DNA of 49,581 nucleotides from Gammaproteobacteria bacterium (GTDB lineage Bacteria > Pseudomonadota > Gammaproteobacteria > Pseudomonadales > Azotimanducaceae): contig VXPO01000051.1 of assembly GCA_009839505.1 (NCBI GenBank), forward strand, positions 1 to 49,581, in the 5' to 3' direction. The translations under genes and the position numbers were made by a program. Below the pieces are notes generated by a model. The model was not told the origin of the DNA. It did not search any database and saw only the letters and a program-made list of their open reading frames with translations. Positions 10,704-34,661 of the stretch are shown one piece after another (the first letter of the stretch is position 1; each line of letters starts with the position of its first letter).

Positions 10704-10797
10704 GGAAGAGCATCGTCTCCGGTGGGGCGCGCGGCCTTCAAAGCCGTCGGGACGCTCGATAGGCGTCCGGTGGGTTCGACTCCTACCTCTTCCGCCA
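10704..10797 (+). tRNA. selC: tRNA-Sec (anticodon TCA)
   Basis: Selenocysteine tRNA, 94 nt with encoded CCA, closely matching the E. coli selC layout. It has the 5' start GGAAGAG, conserved D region CGTCTCCGGTG, anticodon arm GCGGC-CTTCAAA-GCCGT with UCA at the usual position, and a long variable arm with perfect stem GGACGC/GCGTCC. The T arm is GTGGG-TTCGACT-CCTAC, followed by CTCTTCC-G-CCA. The acceptor pairs as GGAAGAG/CTCTTCC, seven base pairs, and an eighth pair would be C-C. Bacterial tRNA-Sec normally has 8+5, so this looks like 7+5. Its last 17 bases are repeated three times downstream and serve as an integration site. Confidence 0.95.
10781..10797 (+). repeat. att core copy 0, inside selC 3' end
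   Basis: TCCTACCTCTTCCGCCA, the native 3' end of selC. The identical 17-mer recurs in the same orientation at 25361-25377, 29398-29414 and 34645-34661. An integrating element that targets a tRNA 3' end leaves such a direct repeat at each junction. Confidence 0.9.
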
Positions 10798-10806
10798 GGT
10801 TCATGC

Positions 10807-10835
10807 GGCTTCATGGGATTTCATGGAGCCTTTTT
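10807..10835 (+). terminator. Rho-independent terminator of selC
   Basis: Stem GGCTTCATG / CATGGAGCC (nine pairs including one T-G), loop GGATTT, followed directly by TTTTT. It begins ten bases after the CCA end, so it is well placed to stop selC transcription. Confidence 0.8.
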
Positions 10836-10843
10836 GACAGGGG

Positions 10844-10954
10844 TTGTTCCCAACGACGATCCGACATGCCTCCGCGGCATGATCCGGTAGCTATCCGGAA
10901 ACGCTGTCCTGACCAGCAGCGGCTCGATCAGGCTCCGCGGATAGCGGTCGTCGG
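10844..10954 (-). pseudogene. RES-domain toxin remnant (5' end only)
   Basis: This stretch aligns with 26100-26213, the first part of the intact RES toxin gene. Shared blocks include GTTGTTCCCAACG, ATGATCCGGTAGC and TCCGGAAACGCTGTCCTGACCAG. Similarity stops at about 10844, so the rest of the toxin (the catalytic RES core) is absent here. The remnant lies just behind the selC terminator, the position where the intact module sits behind att core 1. Confidence 0.7.
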
Positions 10955-11504
10955 TCAGATAAGGGTCGAGCCGAATCCCGCTGCCGCCGATAGAACCTCG
11001 TCGAGCCCACCGGACTGCAAGCGCTCGATGGGCCGGACCACGCCGTCCTCAAAGGGCCATTCCTGACTGAGGAAAGTCCAGGCAAGCTCCGGCTCCCCAA
11101 CAACGTCCACGATTTCTGCCAATCCGTCAGCGGCCCGACCGGGCCCGACGATCTGACCTGCCGGGATGTTCAGTCGGCGCTTCGTGGAACGCCAAGTGAT
11201 CAACGTGTTCCTGGCCGCCCAGTCGTAAAGGGTCGTACGGGACAAACCCAATCGTGACGCTGCCTCCGTGGCGCCAATCAGATCCTCTCCTGTCGGATCC
11301 ACCTCGAACCGCCGGAGCCGCGCAGGCACATCCCCCGTTGATCTCGTCGGCCTGCCTTAGATTGTGCTGCGGCCGTTTCCAGAGCCACCGCTACCGCGAC
11401 GCGCGCCTCCTCGGGATGCACGCGGACAAACTCCCGGGCACCGCTCGACAGCTTCGGCGGTCTCGTCACGAGGAAACCCAACATCGTTCCGGCGACTCTG
11501 CCAT
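10955..11504 (-). pseudogene. Xre/MbcA-type antitoxin, frameshifted copy
   Basis: A broken duplicate of the antitoxin at 26214-26765. The N-terminal part (MLGFLVTRPPKLSSGAREFVR and onward) and the C-terminal part (RLRRFEVDPTGEDLIGATEAASRLGLSRTTLYDWAARN to AGFGSTLI) are both highly similar to the intact protein. They lie in different frames, and the shift occurs near 11330-11370 after ALETAAAQS. The excisionase-type helix-turn-helix and the toxin-binding C-terminus would need an internal start to be made. With its toxin truncated as well, the module is probably dead. The start codon equivalent to the intact gene is at 11504. Confidence 0.8.
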
Positions 11505-11535
11505 CTCGCTAGAGCCATCTGCTCTTTAAAACCGG

Positions 11536-11564
11536 ACAATTGCCCACAATGTTCAGTTTGTAAA
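11536..11564 (-). promoter_or_regulatory. Promoter of the broken antitoxin copy
   Basis: Reading on the minus strand: -35 TTTACA (11564-11559), 17-bp spacer, -10 AATTGT (11541-11536). It is the same promoter as at 26799-26827, where the -10 is AATTAT. The duplicated region ends just beyond it. Confidence 0.6.
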
Positions 11565-11740
11565 GTAACCCCGAAGATTCCACGCCCCCCTCAAAGACCG
11601 GCAACCACCATTCCCGCCTTCCGCTTGGGGTCGCGCGCGCCAAGCATTGAACACCCCAACGAAATGGATGAAGCTTGTCTGGAGTGCTAGGGTCCAATGC
11701 GAGGTGACCGGGACTCGTAAGCCGTTGGAATCACGTCGCG

Positions 11741-12313
11741 ATGCCCGACATGGTGTCCAAAACGCTCTCTAGGGATATGGAAACACGCTCGGAACAGCCA
11801 GTCAGGCGGTGCTTCAAGCGCGAATCGGTGATCATGGAAAACCGCGCAAGGATAGAGCGTTTCCTTGCCGCGCGCGTCGCCAACCCGATCGACGCCCAGG
11901 ATCTGGCCCAAGAGACCTTCATGCGCCTGTTGCGGGTGAAGGATGCCGACCTGATCCACCAGCCCGATGCGTACCTGTTCAGGATCGCGATCAATCTGAT
12001 CTATGAATACCGATTGCGGGAACAGAAACGCCGAACGAGGGAGAAGGAGTTCAGCATAGACCCGGCGTTCTCCGACCCCCACGCCATAAACGTCGATGAA
12101 CTGGCGTCCCAGCAGGAGCGTATCCGACAGCTCGAGGACTGGCTGGAGGAACTGCCGCCCAAGGTTCGGGCGGCACTGGTTCTACAGCGCCGCGACGGCT
12201 GGACCTACGCCGAGATTGCCGGACGGCTGGACGTTTCCACCAGCATGGTCAAGAAGTACTTGAAACAGGCGATCTCTCATTGCCGCCTCAGAATGAACGA
12301 GTCGAGCGAATGA
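11741..12313 (+). CDS. FecI-type ECF RNA polymerase sigma factor
   Basis: A 190-residue sigma-70 family ECF factor of the iron-starvation FecI type. Region 2 is visible as RIERFLAARVANPIDAQDLAQETFMRLLRV, followed by YLFRIAINLIYEYRLREQKR. Region 4 is LPPKVRAALVLQRRDGWTYAEIAGRLDVSTSMVKKYLKQAISHCR. In FecI systems the factor is released by FecR when a TonB receptor with an STN domain binds its ligand, and it then transcribes the receptor operon. Here fecR overlaps it (ATGA) and a receptor with an STN domain lies 2.3 kb downstream, matching that logic. The ATG at 11741 is taken; ATG 11777 and ATG 11834 are alternatives, and the conserved part starts after residue 30. Confidence 0.93.
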   Translation: MPDMVSKTLSRDMETRSEQPVRRCFKRESVIMENRARIERFLAARVANPIDAQDLAQETFMRLLRVKDADLIHQPDAYLFRIAINLIYEYRLREQKRRTREKEFSIDPAFSDPHAINVDELASQQERIRQLEDWLEELPPKVRAALVLQRRDGWTYAEIAGRLDVSTSMVKKYLKQAISHCRLRMNESSE

Positions 12314-13380
12314 AGCGCGCTAGGGACATCCCGCATCCGAAAGAGGCGGCCGACTGGATTCTCATTGCCCAGGAACGCCCGCTCACCCGACAGGAAAGCA
12401 GGCAGCTCGCCCAGTGGCTGCGAAGTTCGCCGGCGAACGTGCGCGAGTACATGGACGCCGCGGTCGTATGGAACGACATGGCAGACATCGACCCTAATCG
12501 GCGAATCGACATCGACACCCTCGTCTCGCACGACGGCGTCGTGCCGTTTCCCGTGCCGCCGGCCGCATCGACCGCCCCAACAACGCGACGTGCCCTGACT
12601 GCCCGGATTTCCGCCATCGCCGCCTCGGTGCTCGTCGCGGTCTTCGCCGGGCTGCTGTACTGGCAGATGGATGCGGGCGATCCGAAGACCGTCTCTACCG
12701 AGCTTGGAGAGCAACGGTCCGTCGCGTTGGACGACGGTTCGATCATTCACCTCAATACGCAGTCGCAGGTACGGATCGACTACGACAAGCGACGGAGGTT
12801 CCTGGAACTGGTCGAAGGCGAGGCCCTGTTCACGGCGGTCGAGGATCCCGCCCGGCTCTTCATCGTGCGGGTGGGCGGAGCGGAGGTCCGGGTTGTGGGA
12901 ACACAGTTCAACATCCGGCGTCGGCGGGATTCGGCCATCGTCACGGTCGTCGCCGGTGCCGTCAGAATCGGTCAGGTCGCACCCGGTCCTTCGGCGGAAG
13001 GACCGTCCGCAACCTCCGGCGAGGGCTCCGCCGACCTTGTCGAGGTCGTCGCCGGGCAGCGCGTCGGCATCGACCACGCGGGAAGAGCCGGCCCGCCGGA
13101 AGACGTTCACACCGACAAGGTGCTGACGTGGACCGAACGCCGCCTGGTCTTCGATGGCGACCCATTGGCCGTTATCGCCGAGGAGTTCAATCGATACAAC
13201 GCCGTCAAGCTGAAGATCGGCGACCCCAAGTTGGGCGACATGCGGCTCAGCGGCGTATTCTCGGCTAACGATCCAGCGTCGCTCGTCGAATACCTCAAAA
13301 CCGTCGAAGCGCCGACGATCGACGTCCGCCGCAGCGGGACCGCCTTGGTCGTCCATTCTGCCGACGATCGAGTGCCCTAA
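12310..13380 (+). CDS. FecR-type anti-sigma / sigma regulator
   Basis: A 356-residue inner-membrane protein that passes the receptor signal to the sigma factor. The N-terminal cytoplasmic FecR_N/DUF4880 segment is AADWILIAQERPLTRQESRQL. One transmembrane helix follows at about residues 98-118 (ISAIAASVLVAVFAGLLYW), then the periplasmic FecR domain (LGEQRSVALDDGSIIHLNTQSQVRIDY, EGEALFTAVEDPARLFIVRVG) and a C-terminal STN-like DUF4974 domain (PLAVIAEEFNRYNAVKLKIG). ATG at 12310 overlaps the sigma stop as ATGA, so the pair is translationally coupled. A Pro/Ser/Gly-rich insert (about residues 225-250) splits the periplasmic part. The last codons and stop lie inside a repeat that recurs before the receptor gene. 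Confidence 0.92.
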   Translation: MKRARDIPHPKEAADWILIAQERPLTRQESRQLAQWLRSSPANVREYMDAAVVWNDMADIDPNRRIDIDTLVSHDGVVPFPVPPAASTAPTTRRALTARISAIAASVLVAVFAGLLYWQMDAGDPKTVSTELGEQRSVALDDGSIIHLNTQSQVRIDYDKRRRFLELVEGEALFTAVEDPARLFIVRVGGAEVRVVGTQFNIRRRRDSAIVTVVAGAVRIGQVAPGPSAEGPSATSGEGSADLVEVVAGQRVGIDHAGRAGPPEDVHTDKVLTWTERRLVFDGDPLAVIAEEFNRYNAVKLKIGDPKLGDMRLSGVFSANDPASLVEYLKTVEAPTIDVRRSGTALVVHSADDRVP

Positions 13381-13425
13381 ACCCGTTTCCAAACACTCTC
13401 TGGTCGTACAGAAGGTGACCCTTCG
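13369..13425 (+). repeat. Leader repeat copy 1 (fecR end to trxB)
   Basis: Begins CGAGTGCCCTAAAC and contains AACACTCTCTG and CCCTTCG. The same blocks in the same order and spacing (one 1-nt gap) recur at 14601-14656. GAGTG and CACTC within each copy can pair. It overlaps the fecR stop codon. Confidence 0.65.
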
Positions 13426-13431
13426 AGTTGA

Positions 13432-14490
<1,059 letters not shown>

Positions 14491-14600
14491 GCGTGAGCGG
14501 GGCCGAAGTACCGCGCGCCCGAAGCCGGAGGATTTCGTGGCGCAAGCGTCGCATCGGCATCGCAGGGACTCGGCCTTCTTAAACCGTCGCGCGACCCGGT

Positions 14601-14656
14601 CGAGTGCCCTAAACGCGGTGGGGAACACTCTCTGTATGAAAAGGGGCGATCCTTCG
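14601..14656 (+). repeat. Leader repeat copy 2 (before TonB receptor)
   Basis: Second copy of the element at 13369: CGAGTGCCCTAAAC, AACACTCTCTG and TCCTTCG blocks are shared. It sits directly in front of the receptor's ribosome-binding site GGGGAGG. In a FecI-controlled cassette this is where the ECF promoter should be. Confidence 0.65.
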
Positions 14657-14667
14657 GGGAGGTGATA

Positions 14668-17600
14668 GTGATCCGACGACCGTTTTCGCTAGTGTTGCTC
14701 TGTGCATCGTTGCTGCTTTGTCCGAACGCGCCGGCCGGACCGGCGGAGGCAGAGTCTGCTCCCGCCGCCGAGGTGCCTTTGGACGAGGCCCTGTTCTCGT
14801 TCGCCGAGGCGACCGGCCTGCAGCTCGTCTACCAACCCGAACTCGTCGCCGGCAAGACTGCGCGGGCATATGCGCCGTCGGCTGGGGCGGCGGACGATCC
14901 TGGAGCGGAACTAGCACGGCTGCTCCGGGGAACCAAACTCTCCTACACCTTTGTCAACGACCGCACCGTCGCCATCGAAAGCTCGACGCCAAAGGATGGG
15001 CCGCCCGATAAGGAAGATACCGACCCCGGGGGCGCACCCGAACCGTCGGACGGGCAGCCCGCCGCCTCCGAATCGGACAGCCCCGGCGCGCAGAGCGCTC
15101 CCGGGAATGTCGACGACGGGCCGCCCGAACGCGAAGTCGAAGAGGTCATAGTGACAGGCTCTCGAATCCAGCGCGCGCGCTCGGAAGTCACCGCGCCGCT
15201 CACGGTCATCGATGGAGACTACCTGCGCGACCGCGGGTACGCCGACGTCGGCCAGGCGCTGCTGGCCGAAGCGTCGTCCACGTCATCCAACCTTGCGACC
15301 ACGAACACCGCCAACCCGACTCTGGGCGGGATCTCCAGCGTGAACCTCCGCGGCTTCACCCGCGGGTCGAGCAGCCGGACGCTCGTGCTGGTGAATGGGC
15401 GTCGCCAAGCTGCCGGAATCGTCGGCTCGTCGGACGTGAATCTGGCCAACATCCCCACGTCCCGCGTCGAGCGGATCGAGATCATTACGGGCGCCTCGTC
15501 CGCAGTCTACGGGACGGATGCCATCGCGGGCGTGGTGAACATCATACTCAAGGACCGCCACGACGGGATCGACTACACATTTCGACTCCAGGGAAACGAA
15601 CACGGCGACGGCGACGAGCAGTTTGCCTCCGTGACGTGGGGGAAGTCGTTCGACAACGGTGGTCTGATGCTCAACCTGGAGCACACCAATGTCGAACCCG
15701 CATTGAGGGAGAACCGGGACTTCCTCGATCCCCTCAACCTCGAGAGACTAATATTCTCGTTCGACTTCACGACGCTCTCGCTGACGACTGAATTGCGGGA
15801 CAACGTCACGAATCCCGCCATCAACGGCAGAGGCTTGTTCCGCCACCTGTTTCTGACCTTCGACGACGCCGCCGGACTCGTCCCGTTCGACCCCGGCGAA
15901 TTGACGATATCCGGGCAAAGCATCGGCGGCGACGGGCCGCCTGCCGAAGAGGAGCGCACGCCCTACCTCACGTTTCCCGTCGAGAGAACGCAGCTCGGCA
16001 TCACCTTCGATCGGACCCTAGGCAGCGCCGATGGGATACCTCTTGACGTCGAGGCGTTCGGCGAGGCGACGTACATTCGAACCCACTCGGGACACCGCGG
16101 TTTCTACGTCGACCTGAACCCGAACCAGGAGACGACCCTCGGTCCCGTCCTCGTCGATCCCGGCAACCCGTTCCTGCCACCGACGTCGGCCGCCATCCTG
16201 TCGGTGATCCCCGCCGCGGCCAGGGCCTTCACCCGCAGGTTCTACGAATTCGGGCGCAATACGCTGGATACGGAGTCCAACCAGGTCGACGTTGTCCTCG
16301 GACTCAAGGGGACGATGCCGAACGACTTTCGCTGGGAGGTCTCATACAGCGCGGACCGCAGCGAAAGATACCTCGCGTACGACTCGATCAACCGGTGGCG
16401 CCTGAAACAGGCCGTGGAGGCCACGCGCGATCCCGCCACCGGCGAGCCGGTATGCGCGGACCCCTCTGCTGGCTGCGTCCCCATCGACCCGTTCGGACCC
16501 TTCGACCGACACACGTTGCCGCCGGCGTTGATCGACTTCCTCTACTTCTCGCCGGAGCAACAGGAGACAACGCGCCTTCAGGTCGCCTCGGCGTCGCTGC
16601 TGGGCCGCCTTCTGCCGACCCCGGCCGGCGACATGAGGTTCGCGCTCAACCTCGAGTACCGAAGGCAGTCCGTCGGCATCGACGTCAACCAGGACACGTT
16701 GATCGAGGACACGTTCGCGCATTCGCTCGGAAACTACGACTACTCCAAAGCCGACTTCAGCGTCGGCGAGGCTCGGGCCGAACTCAACATTCCCCTGCTC
16801 GCGGGGCAACCTTTGGTGAACAAGCTGAGTCTGGATCTGTCCGGGAGCATAGGAAACTACAGCCACATCGACGGCGCTGTCGACTCCTGGAAAGCGGGAC
16901 TGGCCTGGGCGCCCATCGGATCGCTGCGATTTCGCATCGCCCTGGGGTCCGCGATCCGCGCGCCGAACCTCGGCGAGGTCTCGGGCCCCGGCTCGGAACA
17001 GATCGCGCTCACCCTAGACCGCTGCAGCCTGCTCGGCATCAGTTTCGCCTTCGACCCCGACCTGGTCCGCAGCAACTGCGAGGCCCGCGGCGTCAACGTC
17101 GTCACCAACAGCCCCTTCGCGCTCGCCTCGCTGGTGACACGTCGCAACCCCGACCTGGGTCCGGAGACGGCCCAGACGCTGACGGCCGGCTTCACATTCG
17201 AGCCTCCGTTTGTGCCGGGGCTGGTGCTCGAAGCCGACTACTTCGACATCGACACCGATCGCGTGATCCGGTTCCTCCAAGGAACCGCCGCGCACTTCGA
17301 CTGCGTTACGGACCAGGTCGGCGACGGCTCGAGTCCCGCCTGCGACTTCGTCGTCCGCAATCCGGACGGTACGATCGACACGATCCTCTCGCAGTACGAC
17401 AACCTCGATCGGCTCGCCAGCAGGGGACTCGACCTCAACCTAAGCTACTCGCTGGCGCTCGCGGGCGGAGAGCTGGACCTGTCCTTTACGGGGACACGTC
17501 TGGAGTTGTTCAGGCTGACTCCCTACCACGGCGTAGTGCGGGACGAGATCGGATGGCCGGGCACGCCGAGGAAGAAATACAGGATATCGGCTAACTACTT

Positions 17601-17868
17601 CCGCGGCCCGGTCGGCCTGTTCCTGTCGAGCCGTTTCCAGGACACGCTCGATAGCTCCTTCGGGGGACGGCTCGAGGGCATACCCCGGGCCGAGTCCGTC
17701 GTCTACCACGACGCCACCGCGCGATGGACCATTGCGGAGCGGTTCGAACTTCGTCTCGGCGCCACGAATCTCCTGGACACCCGGCCGAAATCGAGCGTGC
17801 AACTGAACATTCTGCTGTACGACCTGATCGGACGTCGCGTGTTCCTGAGCCTCGGCGGGTCGCTCTAG
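14668..17868 (+). CDS. TonB-dependent receptor with N-terminal STN signalling domain
   Basis: A transducer-type outer-membrane receptor of about 1066 residues. A signal peptide (PFSLVLLCASLLLCPNAPAG) is followed by an STN domain (VPLDEALFSFAEATGLQLVYQPELVAGK to YTFVNDRTVAIE). An acidic Pro/Gly/Ser linker comes next, then the TonB box/plug (EVEEVIVTGSRIQRAR, VNLRGFTRGSSSRTLVLVNGRR, RIEIITGASSAVYGTDAIAGVVNIILK) and a barrel ending in RRVFLSLGGSL. The STN domain contacts FecR, which matches the fecI-fecR genes upstream. The GTG at 14668 sits five bases after GGGGAGG; a GTG at 14662 is the alternative. This plug family (GSRI, ...AGVVNI) is often tied to peptide or complex-carbohydrate uptake in marine proteobacteria, but the ligand is unknown. 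The neighbouring YddA-type transporter favours a peptide or protein ligand (inference). Confidence 0.93.
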   Translation: MIRRPFSLVLLCASLLLCPNAPAGPAEAESAPAAEVPLDEALFSFAEATGLQLVYQPELVAGKTARAYAPSAGAADDPGAELARLLRGTKLSYTFVNDRTVAIESSTPKDGPPDKEDTDPGGAPEPSDGQPAASESDSPGAQSAPGNVDDGPPEREVEEVIVTGSRIQRARSEVTAPLTVIDGDYLRDRGYADVGQALLAEASSTSSNLATTNTANPTLGGISSVNLRGFTRGSSSRTLVLVNGRRQAAGIVGSSDVNLANIPTSRVERIEIITGASSAVYGTDAIAGVVNIILKDRHDGIDYTFRLQGNEHGDGDEQFASVTWGKSFDNGGLMLNLEHTNVEPALRENRDFLDPLNLERLIFSFDFTTLSLTTELRDNVTNPAINGRGLFRHLFLTFDDAAGLVPFDPGELTISGQSIGGDGPPAEEERTPYLTFPVERTQLGITFDRTLGSADGIPLDVEAFGEATYIRTHSGHRGFYVDLNPNQETTLGPVLVDPGNPFLPPTSAAILSVIPAAARAFTRRFYEFGRNTLDTESNQVDVVLGLKGTMPNDFRWEVSYSADRSERYLAYDSINRWRLKQAVEATRDPATGEPVCADPSAGCVPIDPFGPFDRHTLPPALIDFLYFSPEQQETTRLQVASASLLGRLLPTPAGDMRFALNLEYRRQSVGIDVNQDTLIEDTFAHSLGNYDYSKADFSVGEARAELNIPLLAGQPLVNKLSLDLSGSIGNYSHIDGAVDSWKAGLAWAPIGSLRFRIALGSAIRAPNLGEVSGPGSEQIALTLDRCSLLGISFAFDPDLVRSNCEARGVNVVTNSPFALASLVTRRNPDLGPETAQTLTAGFTFEPPFVPGLVLEADYFDIDTDRVIRFLQGTAAHFDCVTDQVGDGSSPACDFVVRNPDGTIDTILSQYDNLDRLASRGLDLNLSYSLALAGGELDLSFTGTRLELFRLTPYHGVVRDEIGWPGTPRKKYRISANYFRGPVGLFLSSRFQDTLDSSFGGRLEGIPRAESVVYHDATARWTIAERFELRLGATNLLDTRPKSSVQLNILLYDLIGRRVFLSLGGSL

Positions 17869-17920
17869 TCCGTTGTTCGGCACTCCAGAAACAGTCGGTA
17901 CCGACGCTGGGTCCCTGCGC

Positions 17921-19666: not shown

Positions 19667-19680
19667 CATCGGAGGACGAC

Positions 19681-26217: not shown

Positions 26218-26765
26218 GTAAAGGTAGCGCCAAATCCCGCTGCCGCTGATAGAACCTCGTCGAGCCCACCGGACCGCAAGCGCTCAATGGGACGAGCCAT
26301 CCCGCCATCGAAGGGCCACTCCTGACTGAGGAAAGCCCAGGCAAGCTCCGGCTCCCCAACAACGTCCACGACTTCTGCCAATCCGTCAGCAACCCGACCG
26401 GGCCCCACAATCTGGCCTGCGGGGATGTTCAGTCGCCGCTTCGTGGACCGCCAGGCGATCAATGTGTTCCTAGCCGCCCAGTCGTAAACGGTCGTACGCG
26501 ACACACCAAGTCGCGACGCCGCCTCGGTGACGCCGATCAGATCCTCATCAGTCCGATCCACCACGAACCTCCGAAGCCGCGCGGGCACCTCCGCGGCTGA
26601 CCTCACCCGCTCCGCCCCGGATTGTGCAGCGGCTGTTTCCAGAGCCACCGCGACCGCTACGCGCGCCTCCTCGGGATGCTCGCGGACAAACTCCCTAGCG
26701 CCGCTCGATAGCTTCGGCGGTCTCTTCACGAGAAAGCCCATCATTGTTCCTGACGACTCTGCCAT
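26214..26765 (-). CDS. Antitoxin of RES module (excisionase-type HTH, MbcA/ParS-like C-terminus)
   Basis: A 183-residue antitoxin. The centre has a helix-turn-helix of the excisionase/MerR-like kind (DLIGVTEAASRLGVSRTTVYDWAARNTLI). The C-terminal region VVGEPELAWAFLSQEWPFDGGMARPIERLRSGGLDEVLSAAAGFG matches the layout of the MbcA/ParS toxin-binding domain. ATG 26765 (MAESSGT) is chosen because the promoter lies at 26799-26827, inside any longer form. It should bind both the toxin and its own promoter. A frameshifted duplicate sits at 10955-11504 and a C-terminal fragment at 34664-34750. Confidence 0.85.
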   Translation of the reverse strand: MAESSGTMMGFLVKRPPKLSSGAREFVREHPEEARVAVAVALETAAAQSGAERVRSAAEVPARLRRFVVDRTDEDLIGVTEAASRLGVSRTTVYDWAARNTLIAWRSTKRRLNIPAGQIVGPGRVADGLAEVVDVVGEPELAWAFLSQEWPFDGGMARPIERLRSGGLDEVLSAAAGFGATFT

Positions 26766-26798
26766 ATCGTCCAAGCAATCTGCTCTTTCAATGACCGA

Positions 26799-26827
26799 AT
26801 AATTGCCCACAATGTTCAGTTTGTAAA
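26799..26827 (-). promoter_or_regulatory. Promoter of RES toxin-antitoxin operon
   Basis: On the minus strand, -35 TTTACA (26827-26822), 17-bp spacer, -10 AATTAT (26804-26799), about 35 bases before the antitoxin ATG. The sequence is conserved in the broken copy at 11536-11564, supporting function. Confidence 0.7.
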
Positions 26828-26935
26828 GTCAACCTGACTACCTCTCCACAGGCGAGAGGCGATTCCTCCGGACCGGGCTGCCGTACTGTGTGCACCGCGA
26901 CACGGTCCTTCCAACGACTTGGAAGGCCGGTTCAG

Positions 26936-27307
26936 CTACTCGGGCGGCTGTCCCCATGTGTACAACCGCCGCCCGTCCCTCGTTTCCAGATGATCGAAGC
27001 GGGCGTCGGTACTGTGTCGATATTCTTCGTCTAAATGCGTCAGCACGTACTCGACTGTCTTCTCGTTCACGATGCTGAACTCGACGTTTCCCACACGGGC
27101 TCTCACCTCTACGCTCCAGCGCGGCGACAATACTCCCGGTCCTGCAATAGGTCCGTCCGGCAGGCGCGGCCGAGGGTACAGATTGGGCACGTTGTGAAAC
27201 ACGCCGTCATACCCGGATCCCAACAGAGCCTCGTCGATCTCTTCCTTTGTGAGCGTCTGTACTCCGTTGTGGAACTTCACGCTCAGGATCTCGACCCTAC
27301 AGTACAT
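26936..27307 (-). CDS. Hypothetical protein, last gene of Abi_C operon
   Basis: A 123-residue protein I do not recognise. It reads as a compact alpha/beta protein: MYCRVEILSVKFHNGVQ, a charged helix TLTKEEIDEALLGSG, and a C-terminal segment FSIVNEKTVEYVLTHLDEEYRHSTDARFDHLETRDGRRLYTW. No signal peptide or membrane helix. Its ATG lies within the last codons of the preceding gene (11-nt overlap), so it is made together with that protein and the two probably form a complex. It is the third gene of the 28977-26936 operon on segment 2; a role in defence is inferred only from that context. Confidence 0.75.
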   Translation of the reverse strand: MYCRVEILSVKFHNGVQTLTKEEIDEALLGSGYDGVFHNVPNLYPRPRLPDGPIAGPGVLSPRWSVEVRARVGNVEFSIVNEKTVEYVLTHLDEEYRHSTDARFDHLETRDGRRLYTWGQPPE

Positions 27308-28097
27308 TCAGCTGCCGCATTGCTTCCCGCGAGAGCTCGTCGAAGAACGATTCTTCCACCCTTCTTTCGTGCAATAGATCCTTTCTCGGAATCAGATCCG
27401 ATATCTCGGCGAGATTTCCCAAGTCGAGTTCGATGAAGGGACGGTTTTCCTCCGCATACCAGAGTACGGTCCGGAACTCCTTCTGTTCCTTGTACCCAAT
27501 GTCCTTGTCGAAGAAAGGACTCACCGAAACCGAGGCACGGCCATACACGACGACGGACCTCGTGTATCTCACTGGCGCACTTGCTGCCTGCAACCCGTTT
27601 CGCTGAGCTGCGCTGTGCAAGCGCCCGAAGAACTCTGCGATGTCGGTGATCACCAAGGCGGTGTCGCCGAAGTCCTTATACAGCTGCCTCGTCAGATCCA
27701 GCGTGAAGCTGGAGAGATAGTACGGCCTGTCAGTCTCGACCAAGATCGTCGTGTCGCCTCCTTCTTCGACTACCCGACTTCGCAAATCGTCGCCTTCATT
27801 GAGAATCTCGCCGTTACCACCGCTTCCGAGGATCCTGATCCGCTTCTCGTGCTCGTTGTCCCGCTGCGCCGTGGTCGGAAGACTCGCGGCACCTCCAGAA
27901 GCGTTCAGCCGATACACTCCCGTGTCCCTTGTCTTCCTCGCCACGCATTCCGGGAGGAACCTGTAGAGGCACCCCCGCGTGTACCAGTCGTACAACGACC
28001 GTTGAAAATCCCTGCCACGGCTTATCGTCGCTATCCTTCTCGTATCGTTTGAGCTGAACACGTTACCGGAAGAAGGACATCCCGGGTTTTCACGCAT
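27297..28097 (-). CDS. Hypothetical protein, middle gene of Abi_C operon
   Basis: A 266-residue protein of unknown function. ATG 28097 (MRENPGCPSS) is taken; the frame is open to 28172 but that extension is Arg-rich and unlikely. Features: RGRDFQRSLYDWYTRGCLYRFLPECVARK near the N-terminus, FTLDLTRQLYKDFGDTALVITDIAEFFGRLHSA in the middle, then VVVYGR, PFFDKDIGYKEQKEFRTVLWY and a C-terminal LSREAMRQLNVL. The Y-x-x-Q-x-EFR motif recurs in assorted phage- and defence-associated hypothetical proteins, but I cannot name a family. It follows the Abi_C gene by 106 bp and overlaps the next gene by 11 nt. No transmembrane segments. Confidence 0.75.
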   Translation of the reverse strand: MRENPGCPSSGNVFSSNDTRRIATISRGRDFQRSLYDWYTRGCLYRFLPECVARKTRDTGVYRLNASGGAASLPTTAQRDNEHEKRIRILGSGGNGEILNEGDDLRSRVVEEGGDTTILVETDRPYYLSSFTLDLTRQLYKDFGDTALVITDIAEFFGRLHSAAQRNGLQAASAPVRYTRSVVVYGRASVSVSPFFDKDIGYKEQKEFRTVLWYAEENRPFIELDLGNLAEISDLIPRKDLLHERRVEESFFDELSREAMRQLNVL

Positions 28098-28203
28098 GCT
28101 GCCCTCTCTCGATCGTTCGTACGTGTCGAGCGGCCACCGTTCGCGGTGCCCACGGCTCAAGCTTGCGCCCAAACGGTCGTCGTTCGTCGGCCTTTCCCGT
28201 CGG

Positions 28204-28977
28204 TCAGGTCCTTTCCCTATCTACAAGCGTCTCTATGAGAAACAACGCGATCGCGCCGGCCGTGTTCACCGCGAGACTCGCATGCCGCGGCGATGGCTTA
28301 ACCGGACGCCGTCCGCCTCGGCCATGCGCATCAGACAGACGATTACGTAACGTCCCGAGCCCGTTCACGACCGACATCGTCCCGCCGAGAATCGCCCGAA
28401 TTGGTTCTTCGGTGTGCTGGTCCGGCGCCAAGTTCAGCGCCTTCGCGGCTGCCCGGTAGAGCTTTGGTAGTTCCGCCTTGTCGTCGTACTCCTCGTCGCA
28501 CTCCTCCAGGACGTGCTTGATCACCGTCTCCAGCAGGGTTCTCGCCGACGTGATGGCGCCTTCCGGATCGCGGACGCGCCGGTCGAGGGCTTTCCTCCAC
28601 GCCGAACGGACGCTGTCCGGGTCGACGGACCCAAACGCGTCCGAAGCGACCTGGTCGATCGGCGCCGCGTGAGAATTGTCGAGGTGATCCAATAACGGCG
28701 TGAACGCCTCGTGGATGATCTTGCGGCGTTCCGCCCAAGTCGGTGCGGCTTCCTTGATGTACCCCCAGAAACTCGAGAGGTTTCTGTGCGTGCGAACGAA
28801 CCTCGGCAGGCGCATTCTGAGATCGGGATCTTCCATGAACCCGCGGCGAAGCTCGGTGTAGGCGGGATGGTTATCTTGGCTTATCGTCGCGCGCTCGACG
28901 AGGAGGTTGGCCATCATCTCCGCCCGTTCCACCGCCGATGACGGGAGGTCGTCGTCAAACATCGCTGCATTCTCCAC
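28204..28977 (-). CDS. Abortive-infection C-terminal (Abi_C) domain protein
   Basis: A 257-residue cytoplasmic protein. The C-terminal third matches the Abi_C domain layout: GTLRNRLSDAHGRG followed by RHASLAVNTAGAIALFLIETLVDRE, the typical LGTLRNKxGDAHG...RHAxLAVNxAGAxAxFLxETW pattern. Upstream are the helices ITSARTLLETVIKHVLEECDEEYDDKAELPKLYRAAAKALNLAP. The N-terminal half is helical and unassigned. Abi_C proteins are linked to abortive phage infection. ATG 28977 is used, with ATG 28962 as alternative. It is first of a three-gene operon on the small segment between att cores 1 and 2, next to a toxin-antitoxin module, a setting typical of defence cargo. Confidence 0.85.
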   Translation of the reverse strand: MENAAMFDDDLPSSAVERAEMMANLLVERATISQDNHPAYTELRRGFMEDPDLRMRLPRFVRTHRNLSSFWGYIKEAAPTWAERRKIIHEAFTPLLDHLDNSHAAPIDQVASDAFGSVDPDSVRSAWRKALDRRVRDPEGAITSARTLLETVIKHVLEECDEEYDDKAELPKLYRAAAKALNLAPDQHTEEPIRAILGGTMSVVNGLGTLRNRLSDAHGRGGRRPVKPSPRHASLAVNTAGAIALFLIETLVDRERT

Positions 28978-29319
28978 ATTTCACGCGCGTAGTGCCGTGC
29001 TACGAGTCCGAGGATCCTCTCGTGCAGGGACCCCACCACGTCCATCGCGGCCCTTTTGTGCGCAGTAGTCGTCGCCCAGCAACGCCCGATCATAGGCAGT
29101 GTGGTCCGCACAGCGCCTAGTCACTGCCGATCAAGCAACGACCGGTGATCCTCTGGACATCACAATCTGCCACCGCCGCGTGTCAGTGAGGCTACGCACA
29201 TCTCTTCTCTGCGTGATCACAATCAGATCGCGGGAAGCTCGTCACTCCGGTCGCTCACGCCACCTCGAAGGGCAACTTACCCATTGTCGCACGAGGTTGC
29301 GTCAAGTCCTACGGATCGT
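28978..29319. other. Non-coding region between Abi_C gene and right end of segment 2
   Basis: About 340 bp without a credible gene. It must contain the minus-strand promoter of the Abi_C operon, but I see no strong hexamer pair. Confidence 0.45.
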
Positions 29320-29320
29320 G

Positions 29321-29337
29321 GTGGGTCAAGTGTGGGG
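29321..29337 (+). repeat. Paired GTGGG arm-like site, right end of segment 2
   Basis: GTGGGTCAAGTGTGGGG, 60 bp before att core 2. Same 11-bp periodicity as the other three copies. The 60-bp interval is strongly AT-rich (A- and T-runs at 29346-29380), as is usual between integrase arm and core sites. Confidence 0.75.
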
Positions 29338-29397
29338 TTTTCGCCTTTTCAATAAAATTAAACCTAACAAAAACAATACTATACGATGACACCATGC

Positions 29398-29414
29398 TCC
29401 TACCTCTTCCGCCA
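29398..29414 (+). repeat. att core copy 2
   Basis: TCCTACCTCTTCCGCCA, exact copy of the selC 3' end. The sequence after it (CTTTTTGCTC) differs from that following cores 0, 1 and 3. Confidence 0.88.
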
Positions 29415-29452
29415 CTTTTTGCTCTAATCAATTGTTTTACATCAAAGTTTTT

Positions 29453-29472
29453 GAACAAATGCGCCTTTGTTC
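29453..29472. repeat. Inverted repeat at left end of segment 3
   Basis: GAACAAA-TGCGCC-TTTGTTC, a perfect 7-bp inverted repeat 39 bp inside att core 2. No T-run follows on either strand, so it is more likely a protein-binding site than a terminator. Confidence 0.4.
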
Positions 29473-29582
29473 CCCCTAACGTTGCCGCACCCGAATCCCG
29501 TGCCTGATCGATGCTCCGGGGCGCGCCGCCCGCCGGGCGATGGCCGAGTGCATCGATGCGACTTCCCTTGTTTCACTGATTC

Positions 29583-29606
29583 TGGTATTTTCACCGAATG
29601 GTGAAA
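29583..29606 (+). promoter_or_regulatory. Extended -10 and palindromic operator over the AbiEi start codon
   Basis: TGGTATTTT (29583-29591) is a TGn-extended -10. Transcription would then start at about 29598, the A of the ATG, giving a leaderless message. The palindrome TTTCACC-GAAT-GGTGAAA (29589-29606) covers the -10 and the start codon. Studied AbiEi proteins repress their own operon through inverted repeats, so this is a good candidate autoregulatory operator. Confidence 0.6.
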
Positions 29607-30704
29607 CCCTTTGAATTGCAGAAAGAGCTGGAGGCGAGGGCCCTGGATGCCGTCCGCGATCTTTTGCGTTGTCTCCCTGCCACCGAGGTCACTCCGCTCG
29701 CCGAACTTCGTCGGACCGGCCGCGAATCCCAACCAGACGGATTGATTCGCATGCACTACGGCGGGGCCGTCCGGCTGCTCGTCATCGAGGTGAAGGCGCA
29801 CGGTGCCCCCCGTTTCGTGCGCTCGGCCGTGTACGAACTGGAGAGCTACGTGACACGCATCAGCCAGTCCCCGGCGCACGCTGCCGAGCGGGTCGTACCG
29901 ATGCTCGTCTGTCCCTACCTATCCCCCGAATCGCGCGCCATCTGCCGCGATCACGATGTCGCTTACCTCGACCTCGAAGGCAACGCCCGCCTGGTCTTCG
30001 ACGGCGTCTACATCGAGCGGAGCGTCCCCACCAAGCCGAAGTCCGAAACCCGCACCCTCCGGTCGGTCTTCACCCCGAAGGCGTCCGCCATCCTCCGCGC
30101 CCTGCTGCGGGAGCCGGACCGGCCCTGGCTCGTCACCGACCTCGCCGCGAGCGCCAACGCAAGCCTCGGCCATGTCAGCAACGTCTGCAAGGCCCTTCTC
30201 GAACGGGAGTGGGTCGACCGGCGCCACGATGGCGTCGTCCTCATCCAACCCGACGCCCTCATTCGAACCTGGCGCGAAAACTACCGCCGGCCCCGGGGCG
30301 ACCGGTTCGACGCCTACACGCATCTCCACGGCCGGCAGTTCGACGACCTGATCCGCAGCGGCCTCAATGCTCGACCCGGCTTGCCGCGCGCCGTCTACGC
30401 GCTGGCATCGGCCGCCCAGTGGATCGCCCCCTTCAGCCGTGACGCAACCCGGTCCTTCTACACCGACGCAGCCGGCGCCCGGGTCCTACGGGAGACGTTG
30501 GAACTCAGACCCGGCGGCAGTGGCCCCAACGTCGTCCTCCACACCATTGCCGACGAGAGCATCTTCGACGACGCGATCGAGCCCCTGCCGGACCTGTTCT
30601 GCACCAGCCCGATCGTGACGTACCTGGATCTGTGGTGCGGCAACGACCGCGAGCGCGAAGCCGCCGACCACCTCGCCAGGGAGACGCTGCCGTGGATCGC
30701 GTAG
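29598..30704 (+). CDS. AbiEi-like antitoxin/regulator with PD-(D/E)XK-like N-terminal domain
   Basis: A 368-residue protein resembling long AbiEi-family antitoxins (COG4861 type). The N-terminal 130 residues contain a nuclease-like signature: QPDGLIRMHYGG (Asp47), LLVIEVKAHGAP (Glu64, Lys66), then a helix RFVRSAVYELESYVTR, and SRAICRDHDVAYLDLEGNARL. The centre has a winged helix (SAILRALLREPDRPWLVTDLAASANASLGHVSNVCKALLEREWVDRR, about residues 155-205). The C-terminal half (FDAYTHLHGRQFDDLIR to LDLWCGNDREREAADHL) matches the AbiEi C-terminal domain layout. The stop overlaps the GTG of the next gene by 13 nt. The expected role is repressor and antitoxin to the nucleotidyltransferase. The intact D-x16-E-V-K pattern raises the question of nuclease activity. 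Confidence 0.82.
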   Translation: MVKPFELQKELEARALDAVRDLLRCLPATEVTPLAELRRTGRESQPDGLIRMHYGGAVRLLVIEVKAHGAPRFVRSAVYELESYVTRISQSPAHAAERVVPMLVCPYLSPESRAICRDHDVAYLDLEGNARLVFDGVYIERSVPTKPKSETRTLRSVFTPKASAILRALLREPDRPWLVTDLAASANASLGHVSNVCKALLEREWVDRRHDGVVLIQPDALIRTWRENYRRPRGDRFDAYTHLHGRQFDDLIRSGLNARPGLPRAVYALASAAQWIAPFSRDATRSFYTDAAGARVLRETLELRPGGSGPNVVLHTIADESIFDDAIEPLPDLFCTSPIVTYLDLWCGNDREREAADHLARETLPWIA

Positions 30705-31549
30705 AACCCCAGTCCGCGAACGACTACGACGACCGGACCACCGCGGCGGTCAAGAGCGTCCTGGTCGAGATCGGCCAGATCCTCGGCAGCTTTGAGGGCA
30801 AGTTCGCCGTCATCGGCGGCGCCGTGCCGTGGCTCCTGCTGAGCCAGGCGGAAACGCCGCACGTCGGCACGGCCGATGTCGACCTCGCCCTCCATGCCGA
30901 AGCGCTGGGCGACGGCGAGTACGCGCGCCTCGTCGAGCTGCTCCAGCGTCAGGGCTACCGGCAGGCGCGCGACCTCCGCCGTTTCCAGCTCGCCCGTACG
31001 GTCCCCTCGCGCGACGGCGGACCGCCCATCGACGTCATCGTCGACTTCTTGATGCCCAGGGACGCGGTCATCGCGAAGAACGACCCACCCCTGGTCAGCA
31101 ACTTCGCGGTCCAGCGCGCCGACGGAGCCGAGCTCGCGTTGAACTTCTACCAAATGGTCGCCATCGACGGGGGCATGCCGCACGGCGGCCGCAACCTGGT
31201 CTCCATTGCCGTCGCCAGCATCCCCGCTCTACTCGCCATGAAGGGCTACGCGATCGCGCAACGCCAGAAGCCCAAGGACGCCTACGACATCTACTACTGC
31301 GTGCTCAACTACCCCGGTGGCGTCGACGACCTCGTCGCGGACACCCTGCCGCTTCTCGAGGTCGACGTCGCCAGAACGGGTTACCGCAATATCGCCAGCA
31401 AGTTCCGCACCGTCGACGACTACGGCCCCGTCTGCGTTCGGCGGTTCGTGGACGGCTCGCCCCTCCTCGCCGGGCGGACGCCTGCTCAGTGGCAGCAGGA
31501 CGCTTTCGGCCAAGTCGACGCCTGGCTCGTCCGACTCGGGTTGAGGTGA
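30692..31549 (+). CDS. AbiEii-type nucleotidyltransferase toxin
   Basis: A 285-residue nucleotidyltransferase-like protein. The catalytic region is recognisable: FAVIGGAVPWLLL followed by GTADVDLAL (the T-x-D-V-D metal-binding motif), IDVIVDFL with a further acidic residue, and a C-terminal helical part with LLAMKGYAIAQRQKPKDAYDIYYCV, the KxxDxxDI signature of AbiEii/AbiGii proteins. The GTG at 30692 is chosen because the protein family begins just before VLVEIGQIL; the open frame extends upstream inside the previous gene. It overlaps that gene by 13 nt, as in type IV AbiE pairs. Studied relatives (MenT, AbiEii) transfer nucleotides to tRNA or bind GTP and cause growth arrest. Confidence 0.85.
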   Translation: MDRVEPQSANDYDDRTTAAVKSVLVEIGQILGSFEGKFAVIGGAVPWLLLSQAETPHVGTADVDLALHAEALGDGEYARLVELLQRQGYRQARDLRRFQLARTVPSRDGGPPIDVIVDFLMPRDAVIAKNDPPLVSNFAVQRADGAELALNFYQMVAIDGGMPHGGRNLVSIAVASIPALLAMKGYAIAQRQKPKDAYDIYYCVLNYPGGVDDLVADTLPLLEVDVARTGYRNIASKFRTVDDYGPVCVRRFVDGSPLLAGRTPAQWQQDAFGQVDAWLVRLGLR

Positions 31550-31552
31550 CGC

Positions 31553-32449
31553 ATGCCCACCGCCTCTCGGAGACACATCCGCACCACCGACATGCTGGTC
31601 ATCGACAACGTGTTCGGTATGGGCGACGGCTACGTCCTGAACTTCTCCAACCGCACGTTCTCGGAGTTCTTCGCCGACGAACTCGGCGTCGACATCGACC
31701 AGCCCCGCTGGTCCGTGGACGGCAGCAGCAAGGCGAAGCGCCTGCGCACCTACCTGCGTCAGGCGGATCGCGAAACCGCGTTGCGAACGCTGCAGGCGTT
31801 GTGGGACTACTGCGAAGCAAGCAGCCTGGTCGTCGACCACTCGCCGATCGGCGAAGAGGGCCGTAACGCATTCTTCCGAATCATCGAGCGCCTCGGCGGC
31901 ACGCCGCCGCCGTCTACGACTGCCGATACCAACCCCGCCCTTCAGCGGCCCGACCCGGACGTTGGCAACGAGCTCGCGGCGCGTCTGATCACCATCTCCC
32001 GCATGGATCCACAACCTCGAGGCTACGCGTTCGAAAAGTTCCTCAAGGACGTCTTCGACGCCTTCGGTCTGGCAGCGCGGGCTTCGTTCCGGCTGCGAGG
32101 CGAGCAGATCGACGGCAGCCTCTCGGTCGGTCAGGACACCTACCTGCTCGAAGCCAAGTGGACGAACACCCAGGTCGACGGGGCCACGCTCCGTTCATTC
32201 AACGCCAAGGTCGAAGACAAGGCGAGGTGGTCGCGCGGCCTCATGGTCAGTCAGAGCGGTTTCACGACCGAGGGCCTCCACGCGCTGGGCCGAGGCAAGA
32301 GCGTCGTCTGCATGGACGGGCTCGATCTCCACGACACTTTGACGCGACGACTCGACCTGTCCTCGGTCATCGCCGCCAAAGCCCGGCGGGCGGCAGAAAC
32401 GGGAATGGCGTTCGTGCCCGTAAGGGAGCTGGATCCCCACCGAACGTGA
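31553..32449 (+). CDS. PD-(D/E)XK restriction-endonuclease-like protein
   Basis: A 298-residue protein with a clear endonuclease core in its C-terminal half: RGYAFEKFLKDVFDAFGL (Glu161 on the first helix), GEQIDGSLSVGQDTYLLEAKW (Asp187, Glu200, Lys202), and SRGLMVSQSGFTTEGLHALGRGKSVVCMDGLDL. This is the Mrr/type IV-like arrangement E-D-ExK. The N-terminal 130 residues (VLNFSNRTFSEFFADELGVDI, RLRTYLRQADRETALRTLQALWDYCE) are helical. This part looks like the small domain found before REases in defence loci. GAGGTGA lies just before ATG 31553, and the spacing of 3 bp to the previous stop indicates one operon. No methyltransferase is nearby, so it is not an ordinary restriction-modification enzyme. 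Confidence 0.86.
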   Translation: MPTASRRHIRTTDMLVIDNVFGMGDGYVLNFSNRTFSEFFADELGVDIDQPRWSVDGSSKAKRLRTYLRQADRETALRTLQALWDYCEASSLVVDHSPIGEEGRNAFFRIIERLGGTPPPSTTADTNPALQRPDPDVGNELAARLITISRMDPQPRGYAFEKFLKDVFDAFGLAARASFRLRGEQIDGSLSVGQDTYLLEAKWTNTQVDGATLRSFNAKVEDKARWSRGLMVSQSGFTTEGLHALGRGKSVVCMDGLDLHDTLTRRLDLSSVIAAKARRAAETGMAFVPVRELDPHRT

Positions 32450-32793
32450 ACGCTCCGGAGGGCCTCCCTCGCTCGTCATCGCATCGGCAGCCGCCGGCTC
32501 TCCAACCGGACGACACAACCCGACCAGCCCAACACGGCCGACGCCAACTCAACCGCGTCTGGATCCGCGTTGAACCCCACGCGCTCCATGGCCCAGCATC
32601 GTCGTCTCCAGCAACCCCGCCCCGCCGGCTCCTCTGCCGCGCCATCCCAGTCGTCTCGGCGAGCGACCCCGCCCGCGCTTCGTCCGCTCGCCACAGACCG
32701 ATTGCCACCCCAGGCTCTCCCGCCGTTTTGCCTTCCTTCACCGCGGCTCGTACGCTTGCCCGCTTGCGTAGCAGGCTTGCAGGGACCTGAACC
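32450..32793. other. Non-coding gap in segment 3
   Basis: 344 bp between the endonuclease and the TIGR04141 gene. No gene or clear promoter is seen. The length suggests the last gene may have its own promoter. Confidence 0.45.
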
Positions 32794-34452
32794 GTGCCCG
32801 ACGAACCATCGCTGGTGAGTCTCAGTATTCATCTCATCAAACCCAGCGACGAGGAAATCACGTCCATTCTGGTGAGCCGCGCCCCGTTGGACGAACACCA
32901 CGTGCGATTCAACGACGGCGAAGGTCAGCTCTTCATCAAACGTCCGAACGCCCGCTCGCCCGACTGGGCAAGGTTCTTCTCTCCCCAGATCGACCGGGGC
33001 GCTTTCGGCCTAACCGCTGCGGTGTCGGCTGTCCTATTGCTCGAGACCGGTGATCGAGCGTTCGAGATCACCTTTGGGCCCGGCGGTCGATTCCTTATCG
33101 ACACCGCAAAGGCCGAAGAGAGGTTCGGGCTTCTGGCAGTCGTTAACTCCATTCCGGAGAATCGACTCCGGAGCATGGACAAGACCGCCTTCGACGCGCT
33201 CGCCACGCACTCTCGCGTACAGACAAGCCGTGAAGCAAGCGCCACCGAGTTTGGTTTGGACGTCGAACGCGACCTCGTAAGAGCGGTCACCGGGACCCCT
33301 GACAAGGACGACCTGGGACAAAGGCTCCAAGGTGTAGATTCACTCAGGGCAACGGTTCGAGTCGAGCTGGCCGATCTCCCCGGCCTGCTGCGAACCTATC
33401 TCGCCCGGTATCGCTCGACCAGCTACAAGAAGAGTTTCCCGTGGATCGACCACATCGCCGAGGTCAAGGACAAGGCTCTTCGCCATCGTCTTGATCAGCA
33501 ACTGCTGGAGACAATACAGGGGCGCGAGCTGGACACCTGCTGGCTCGCCGTTCCCGAGATCGTTGACTGGGACCGGATTCACAGGTTTCGTTACGGTAGG
33601 GGTCGCAGGAATCCGACACACCACGACATCGATCTGGACCGATGGCTCACCGAGTTGACCAACACGACAAAACGCTTGAGTTCCCCCGCTGATTTCGACT
33701 TGAACCTGCTCTCGAACCGGAAGGTCCTTGCGCTAGACGAGGATGGCAGGGAAATCGCTCAATGGTCAATCTACAAGTGCCTCAACGCGGAGATCGAGGG
33801 AGACGACGACAACGCATACCTCATAAGCGCCGGCAAATGGTATCGGGTCGCACGGAACTTTGTTCAAGGCGTCAACAGGGACTTCGATCAGATCCCGCGA
33901 TTCGCTCACCGCCTGCCCGAGTACTGTCACGAGAGCGAAGGAAGCTACAACGAATCCGTGGCGCGAAGTGATCCAGAAACGTTTGCATTGCTTGACAAAC
34001 AGAACATTCCGTATGGAGGCGGGCCAAGCCGGATCGAATTCTGTGACCTTTACACGAGAAACCGCGACATCATTCACGTGAAGAGATACGGTGGCTCCAA
34101 CGTTTTGAGTCATCTCTTCTCTCAAGGCACGGTCTCGGGTGAGGTCTTCTGGATGCAGGCTGACTTCAGGGAGTTGGTCAACCAGCGCCTGCCCGAATCT
34201 CACCGAACCCAAGAGCCCGCCCGACAGCCCAATGCACGTGACTATCAAGTCGTCTTCGCGGTGGTTAGCAAACAGGAGGGTGAGGGTCTCTCCCTGCCGT
34301 TCTTCTCGCGATTGAACCTAAGGGCGGCGGCACGACGGTTGCAGGGGTATGGCTATAGGGTGTCCATCGCGAAGATTCCTGTCCAGCAGAGATTCGCCGT
34401 CACCACAGTCACGGTTGAGTCGGGGGATCGAGGCCGCCAAGTTTCGCCTTGA
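32794..34452 (+). CDS. TIGR04141/DUF6119 family sporadically distributed protein
   Basis: A 552-residue protein that fits the TIGR04141 (DUF6119) family, known for patchy occurrence in mobile and defence regions with no settled function. Typical stretches are the N-terminal LSIHLIKPSDEEI, FSPQIDRGAFGLTAAVSAVLLLETGDRAFEITFGPGGRFLI, ELDTCWLAVPEIVDWDRIHRFRYG, WSIYKCLNAEIEGDDDNAYLISAGKWYRVARNFVQGVNRDFDQIP and FCDLYTRNRDIIHVKRYGGSNVLSHLFSQGTVSGEVF. The start is a GTG at 32794 behind AGGGA. No membrane segment or signal peptide. It is the last gene of segment 3, 344 bp behind the AbiEi-AbiEii-endonuclease operon and 190 bp before att core 3. Confidence 0.84.
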   Translation: MPDEPSLVSLSIHLIKPSDEEITSILVSRAPLDEHHVRFNDGEGQLFIKRPNARSPDWARFFSPQIDRGAFGLTAAVSAVLLLETGDRAFEITFGPGGRFLIDTAKAEERFGLLAVVNSIPENRLRSMDKTAFDALATHSRVQTSREASATEFGLDVERDLVRAVTGTPDKDDLGQRLQGVDSLRATVRVELADLPGLLRTYLARYRSTSYKKSFPWIDHIAEVKDKALRHRLDQQLLETIQGRELDTCWLAVPEIVDWDRIHRFRYGRGRRNPTHHDIDLDRWLTELTNTTKRLSSPADFDLNLLSNRKVLALDEDGREIAQWSIYKCLNAEIEGDDDNAYLISAGKWYRVARNFVQGVNRDFDQIPRFAHRLPEYCHESEGSYNESVARSDPETFALLDKQNIPYGGGPSRIEFCDLYTRNRDIIHVKRYGGSNVLSHLFSQGTVSGEVFWMQADFRELVNQRLPESHRTQEPARQPNARDYQVVFAVVSKQEGEGLSLPFFSRLNLRAAARRLQGYGYRVSIAKIPVQQRFAVTTVTVESGDRGRQVSP

Positions 34453-34570
34453 TTCGTGCAGGAACCGCGCGGCTGCTCTCCCCCGGCGGAACCCGTAACC
34501 GGATACCTGGACCGAGTGGACGTGGTTCGGTTGGTGTCCCACCAGGTCGCCCCGAGTCTCACGTTTAGTG

Positions 34571-34587
34571 GTGGGCTGGGTGTGGGG
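34571..34587 (+). repeat. Paired GTGGG arm-like site, right end of segment 3
   Basis: GTGGGCTGGGTGTGGGG, 57 bp before att core 3, again with 11 bp between the GTGGG words and an AT-rich stretch behind it. Confidence 0.72.
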
Positions 34588-34644
34588 CTGCCAATGAGCA
34601 TCCTAAAAAGTTCTATAAAACAATGTGTTGCGGGTTCACTACTC

Positions 34645-34661
34645 TCCTACCTCTTCCGCCA
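34645..34661 (+). repeat. att core copy 3
   Basis: TCCTACCTCTTCCGCCA, fourth exact copy of the selC 3' end and the last one found in the window. It is followed at once by a fragment of the antitoxin gene. Confidence 0.88.

Follow-up and report, generated by a model that had tools for sequence, protein, structure and literature searches.

The 49,581-nucleotide stretch of gammaproteobacterial DNA described here (the window; contig VXPO01000051.1) carries selC, the gene for the selenocysteine tRNA (tRNA-Sec), followed by three DNA segments, A, B and C, each of which ends in a copy of the 3' end of the tRNA. At a probability of roughly 0.87, genomic islands have stacked up at selC in this region, by tandem accretion of integrase-less islands that resemble cis-mobilizable elements (CIMEs). 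This reading is favoured because of the four cores, a right end common to the segments, an integrase stub, intact integrase islands in relatives, and modules that are closer between genomes than selB is. Relatives were compared within the genus (16 genomes, coded G000 for the genome of the window and other numbers for the rest) and within the family (206 genomes).

The selC locus and the ends of the islands

A first-pass annotation had placed the last 17 bases of the tRNA at four positions, all in one direction, and the search of the window found exactly these matches, starting at 10781, 25361, 29398 and 34645, each on the + strand and with 0 mismatches. A C precedes each of the four 17-mers, which extends the shared core to 18 bp. 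Allowing up to 3 mismatches still yields just these 4 matches in the window, whereas 100 shuffled sequences averaged 0.12 matches and never had more than 1. The draft assembly of G000 (4,699,526 bases in 181 contigs, 96% complete) holds 4 exact copies, all in the window, and 0 of the reversed control pattern; a common dispersed repeat, which the annotation had named as one finding that would speak against integration, is rejected on this count. A direct repeat of the tRNA 3' end that bounds an island on either side, a feature of tRNA-targeted islands, is present in the form of the four cores (r1 to r4). The tRNA gene itself was placed at 10703-10796 by ARAGORN and at 10704-10793 by Rfam (RF01852, 69 bits), with the encoded CCA ending at 10797; selA (7418-8782) and selB (8779-10653) lie upstream of it. 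The G+C content is 64.3% in segment A, 59.4% in B and 63.5% in C, compared with 67.7% for selA-selB and 68.7% to the right of the region. The features of the locus and of the island ends are as follows.

10703-10797, + strand: selC (tRNA-Sec), the integration target, its 3' end forming core r1 at 10780-10797 (ARAGORN, Rfam)
10798-11587, - strand: left end of segment A, a hairpin and T-run followed by a decayed RES/HTH module (self-BLAST, match to G007 for the extent to 11587, fold)
24540-24640, + strand: decayed extra right end inside segment A, arm motif kept, core unrecognisable (pattern search, alignment)
25282-25377, + strand: right end of segment A (arm motif) with core r2 at 25360-25377 (end alignment, pattern search)
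29319-29414, + strand: right end of segment B with core r3 at 29397-29414 (end alignment, pattern search)
29397-29512, - strand: left end of segment C, including the 3'-terminal ~22 codons of a tyrosine integrase gene (blastn, tblastn, end alignment)
34569-34661, + strand: right end of segment C with core r4 at 34644-34661 (end alignment)
34665-34766, - strand: RES/HTH fragment of ~100 bp directly after core r4 (self-BLAST)

Island-end sequence flanks the four copies on one or both sides, and since the left ends differ in type a joint alignment of all four surroundings tells little. When the right ends were aligned separately, a conserved motif (TGGTGGG...GTGGGG) emerged 75-78 bp upstream of the 17-mer at r2, r3 and r4, and the same motif stands ahead of two cores in G010, one in G004 and one in G014. 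A strict form of the pattern, TGGTGGGWCNNNTGTGGGG, has 6 matches in 4 of the 16 genus genomes (three in G000, one each in G004, G010 and G014), all of which precede copies of the 17-mer or mark the decayed end at 24540, while the reversed control has 0; this form misses r4 and the third core of G010, where the motif deviates slightly. A looser variant precedes cores in G006 and G011 (contig 53). On that contig of G011 (L051), at position 12906 of the reverse complement, a variant right end is followed by the first 10 bases of the 17-mer and then by other DNA, which makes it a candidate broken or secondary attachment site.

Left ends are mainly of two types. The integrase type is found at r3 and at the first core of both G010 and G004; the RES type is found at r1, r2, the second cores of G010 and G004, in G003 and G007 and at both copies of G011. 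Further members of the genus have different sequence to the right of the core.

Integrase genes and selC occupancy in relatives

The Pfam scan covered 28 of the 209 open reading frames (ORFs) listed for the window, most of which overlap, with small ORFs outside the scan, and none of the 28 has an integrase domain. The integrase gene that is usual inside tRNA-targeted islands was not found in the window, which has only a C-terminal stub. This stub lies at the left end of segment C, which is 87.8% identical to G010 and 91.3% to G004 over 115 bp (blastn); in tblastn it matches at 73% over 22 amino acids (E 4.5e-5) and is the single match with E below 1. A hidden integrase in the window was rejected on these two results. 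Intact integrase genes with Arm-DNA-bind_3, Phage_int_M and Phage_integrase domains, 95% identical to each other, lie beside selC in G010 and G004, and the islands that carry them end in the same right-end motif as r2-r4. Related integrases occur at E 1e-30 in 15 of the 16 genus genomes, and apart from the G010-G004 pair the matches listed are at most 61% identical. Elsewhere in G000 an integrase of the selC type was sought and rejected, the best match being 56% identical and on another contig. PF00589 has 13 matches in G000, and among the 11 listed none is on contig C150; where the surroundings were scanned for tRNAs (3 of the 13), two had none and one a tRNA-His. A wider scan of contigs used two short integrase peptides, and G010 and G004 are the matches that were checked for selC, the others being ~30% identical.

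Island order and content at selC vary among relatives. In G010, selC is followed first by an integrase island (18.7 kb), then by a RES island (5.3 kb) and AbiE genes; in G004, by an integrase island of 15.8 kb and genes labelled cytochrome-P450-like by eye from their sequence. G007 and G008 share flanks at ~89-96%; the DNA from selC to the right flank is a 1.5-kb RES module in G007 and, in G008, 13.1 kb of different sequence that includes integrase remnants. Both flanks are common to G005 and G014, at 94.4% identity over 648 bp on the left and at 95.8% over 3,034 bp on the right. Between them G005 has 177 bp and a single core and looks empty; in G014 there is a second core, preceded by the right-end motif of r2-r4, although the two ends in G014 are on different contigs, so that one insertion between them is something we infer. 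None of the relatives examined, which include no conspecific, carries all segments in the order seen here, the other finding that the first-pass annotation had set against integration. Its view of tRNA 3'-end repeats as footprints of site-specific integration has gained from the right-end signature at r2-r4, the stub in segment C, the intact integrases and this varied content.

Across the family, 14 of 206 genomes have at least two copies of the 17-mer. They lie on one contig in seven (G000, G004, G010, G060, G153, G158 and G161) and on different contigs in the other seven (G011, G014, G029, G064, G179, G194 and G219). The two copies of G179 are probably one gene, as both stand at contig ends with the same tRNA sequence; one of the copies of G219 has no tRNA, and none was found on the 5-kb stretch examined in G158. 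In G161, of another genus, three tRNA-Sec 17-mers lie within 14 kb (L165), and the integrase beside selC is a different one, 28% identical to that of G010.

Probable origin of the stack and rival explanations

In the proposed mechanism, a tyrosine integrase with an arm-binding domain would recombine a circular island, through its core, with the identical 18-bp core where the tRNA ends; this would restore the tRNA and leave a core at the right end of the island. Later islands could enter at any existing core, so that islands would pile up; any order of their entry is one that we infer. The integrase would have been lost after entry, and the islands of G000, which retain their ends alone, would be CIME-like for this reason. 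To leave, such passengers would need a neighbour to go with or an integrase acting in trans. Three serial events had been proposed for the region; serial integration is supported, the count of three is unprovable, and the fossil right end at 24540 together with the RES fragment after r4 suggests more than three.

The copies of the RES/HTH module also bear on the origin of the stack. Open frames throughout are found in copy B alone; copy A is decayed (~683 bp missing relative to B, the HTH frame broken, two pieces in different frames), and the sequence after r4 is a fragment. The RES block of A is 94.5% identical to G010, 91.3% to G007 and 85.8% to B, and that of B is 88.2% identical to G003, 87.0% to G010 and 86.0% to G007; the AbiE block of segment C (29556-31507) matches G010 at 90.0%. 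Taken together, the modules in common with relatives show 82-95% identity. The selB gene of G000, in comparison, is 70.1-74.4% identical to those of G010, G003, G011, G007 (over 371 bp only) and G008, and the pair G010-G007 stands at 92.2% for RES versus 72.1% for selB. In another genus a RES module 86-87% identical occurs near selC, 170 bp from the core in G221 and ~18 kb on in G224, while selB stretches of G224 are 65-66% identical; a third genus is represented by G058, where the match (77%) covers the core plus ~300 bp of flank and stops at the contig end. On the simplest reading of these identities, the pieces of the stack would have arrived separately and would travel between lineages.

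It is conceivable, at odds well short of even, that the RES/HTH flank is instead the native neighbour of selC, that there were fewer insertions, and that extra copies came with incoming DNA carrying the old flank. Such a flank lies directly 3' of selC in G000, RES sequence is found just past the last core in G000 (the fragment) and in G004 (~230 bp), and the flank of r1 and G010 opens with a strong hairpin and T-run that look like a terminator. The hairpin is clear in those two, weak or different in r2, G003, G004, G007 and G011, and as a general terminator it was set aside, being strong in some copies only. In G010 and at r2 of G000, however, the module is flanked by two cores and the segment closes with a right end, which places it inside an island. 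Moreover, a DNA match to the module at E 0.001 occurs in only 15 of 206 family genomes (the two best first-look candidates scored in each), several of the matches being very short, and its identity across genera exceeds that of selB in G224.

Duplication of one island in place by homologous recombination, followed by divergence, would also produce repeated cores and would account for the RES/HTH module after r1, r2 and, as a fragment, r4. It is very unlikely, given that the cargoes of A, B and C come from different families, that self-BLAST shows no long match among the segments beyond the RES block, and that the RES copy of A is nearer to those of G010 and G007 than to that of B. An assembly artefact, by which islands of mixed strains were joined at a short repeat, gains something from the 181 contigs of the draft. 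Assemblers, though, normally need overlaps longer than an 18-bp repeat, and in two other assemblies, G010 and G004, a single contig holds an array with the same ends; we consider such an artefact very unlikely too. An integron was rejected, with no integrase found among the ORFs scanned and with each segment comprising several genes over 4-15 kb and having a tRNA core as its boundary (no search for attC was made).

Some observations weigh against a stack of islands. A RES-type flank lies directly 3' of selC in G003, G007, G011 and G058 with no second core on the same contig. For G010-G003, RES identity (86.5%) is not above that of selB (89.2%), and for this pair horizontal movement is unsupported. 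G007 and G008 have a single 17-mer each despite their differing insertions, with no second core within the 40 kb examined, which means that the right core of an island can be missing. In G005 and G014 the 177-219 bp to the right of the core align poorly, so that the junction is not base-exact, and the comparison set has no conspecific empty site. G000 is a draft and a selC integrase may sit on a missing contig, which makes the absence of one provisional.

A more ambitious form of the island stack, which we regard as improbable, is a cassette system anchored at selC. Integrase-less defence cassettes with a common right end and a RES/HTH left end would circulate among related gammaproteobacterial genera and be shuffled in trans by an occasional integrase-bearing island, the HTH protein (TIGR01764) doubling as directionality factor and antitoxin. 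The HTH protein is excisionase-like, scoring 30.6 bits with TIGR01764 against a cut-off of 28.8.

Cargo, neighbouring genes and known systems

The cargo of the segments and the gene pair beyond the last core are as follows.

11741-24219: segment A cargo, namely FecI-type sigma factor, FecR, thioredoxin reductase, TonB receptor, ABC transporter, thioredoxin-ankyrin protein and PmbA/TldD pair (Pfam/NCBIfam)
25378-29397, - strand: segment B, 4.0 kb, with a RES/HTH pair with open frames at its left end, two ORFs without Pfam match and an Abi_C/AbiJ-like gene at 28204-28977 (Pfam, PADLOC, NCBIfam)
29598-34452, + strand: segment C cargo, namely a gene with sub-cut-off MarR matches, an AbiEii-like gene, an Mrr-like nuclease and a TIGR04141/DUF6119 protein (Pfam, PADLOC, NCBIfam)
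34831-36412, + strand: HTH_31 gene and HipA-like gene (HipBA-type pair) to the right of the last core, belonging to either island or chromosome (Pfam)

PADLOC, run on 10 window proteins, matched 4, AbiJ alone strongly, and the AbiEii-like assignment in segment C is weak (E 2.5e-5 in Pfam, 9e-5 in PADLOC). The ABC transporter of segment A shows an SbmA/BacA-like match; among the 206 family genomes, two have an E 1e-80 match to it, namely G000 itself and one other at 40% (the six best candidates scored per genome); the TldD protein is 64% identical to a copy on contig 171 of the same genome, and the nearest other copy is at most 65% identical. The 11741-24219 cluster may be concerned with peptide uptake and processing. 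In the integrase islands of G010 and G004 the cargo includes NACHT, DndB, SIR2 and TIR/ThsB-like genes, and 2 of the 8 non-integrase proteins scanned have no Pfam match. As segment A carries FecIR-TonB-ABC-TldD genes and AbiJ is the only strong PADLOC match, the mostly defence-type cargo predicted for the stack is a trend with an exception. The stack may be kept stable by the RES/HTH pair at the left ends and by the HipBA pair; in Shewanella, a HipAB pair is reported to stabilise a composite island (PMC8978831).

Further to the right lies a sulfatase gene (36477-37955, - strand) with relatives at 88-91% in five genus genomes, downstream of selC in G008 and on contigs other than that of the 17-mer in the other four. 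Two giant neighbouring ORFs follow (38216-48599, - strand), the first with cadherin-like, fn3, SRCR and leucine-rich repeat domains; 38318-41059 and 43908-46685 are 86.7% identical in self-BLAST.

The recombinase of the ssrA islands of Dehalococcoides, a relative of CcrB, is a serine recombinase. These islands are the closest precedent for the selC stack: in the sections of the report consulted, tandem islands follow a single tmRNA gene and are delimited by direct repeats (over a dozen) of the 3' end of that gene, with a conserved motif just upstream of each repeat and the 3' end of the integrase gene overlapping attL, and 15 of 31 islands have no integration module and were termed possible cis-mobilizable elements (PMC3146451). 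The two systems, as far as that description goes, share tandem islands behind one RNA gene, 3'-end repeats, an upstream motif and integrase-less members; they differ in that the Dehalococcoides islands involve a CcrB relative, a tmRNA and many rdhA genes, whereas here there is a tyrosine integrase, tRNA-Sec and mainly defence or toxin-antitoxin-type cargo. With this precedent, and with two or three cores on one contig in relatives, the array cannot be called unusual, as it had been.

CIMEs are described, in the portion of the source used here, as elements that lack genes for integration and transfer but keep att sites, and that lie stacked behind a target gene with integrative and conjugative or integrative and mobilizable elements (ICE/IME) (PMC5704250). 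The selC segments are alike in bearing candidate att sites behind a target gene: their cores and right ends match those of integrase-bearing islands, and segment C also keeps a matching left end. No integration or transfer genes, and no relaxase or conjugation genes, were found in the 28 window ORFs scanned (small ORFs again outside the scan). Unlike CIMEs linked to ICE/IME as so described, the integrase islands of G010 and G004 have no conjugative or mobilisation domain in the selection of their ORFs that was scanned (8 non-integrase proteins), and their mobility is putative.

For enterobacteria, the text cited lists LEE, SHI-2 and PAI I-536 at selC, direct repeats for the tia island at this gene, and islands of ~17 to 111 kb with virulence cargo, the largest figures being shared with other insertion sites (PMC7545054). 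The present stack shares with these islands the target gene and, with the tia island, the direct repeats; unlike those described there, it consists of 4-15 kb segments in series, with no virulence cargo recognised among the ORFs scanned.

Island stacking is of a kind already known, and as far as the literature was searched what is new lies in the host group, the target gene and the series of decay stages that can be seen; nothing was found that joins sponge symbiont, selC and genomic island, most subscription journals being outside the search. The finding would show that outside the enterobacteria, too, selC is a place where small islands, mostly of defence type, stack up. Within one genus, an intact integrase island, an integrase stub and bare ends are all visible, and the right-end signature exposes integrase-less islands in the draft genomes of this genus that would otherwise be easily overlooked.

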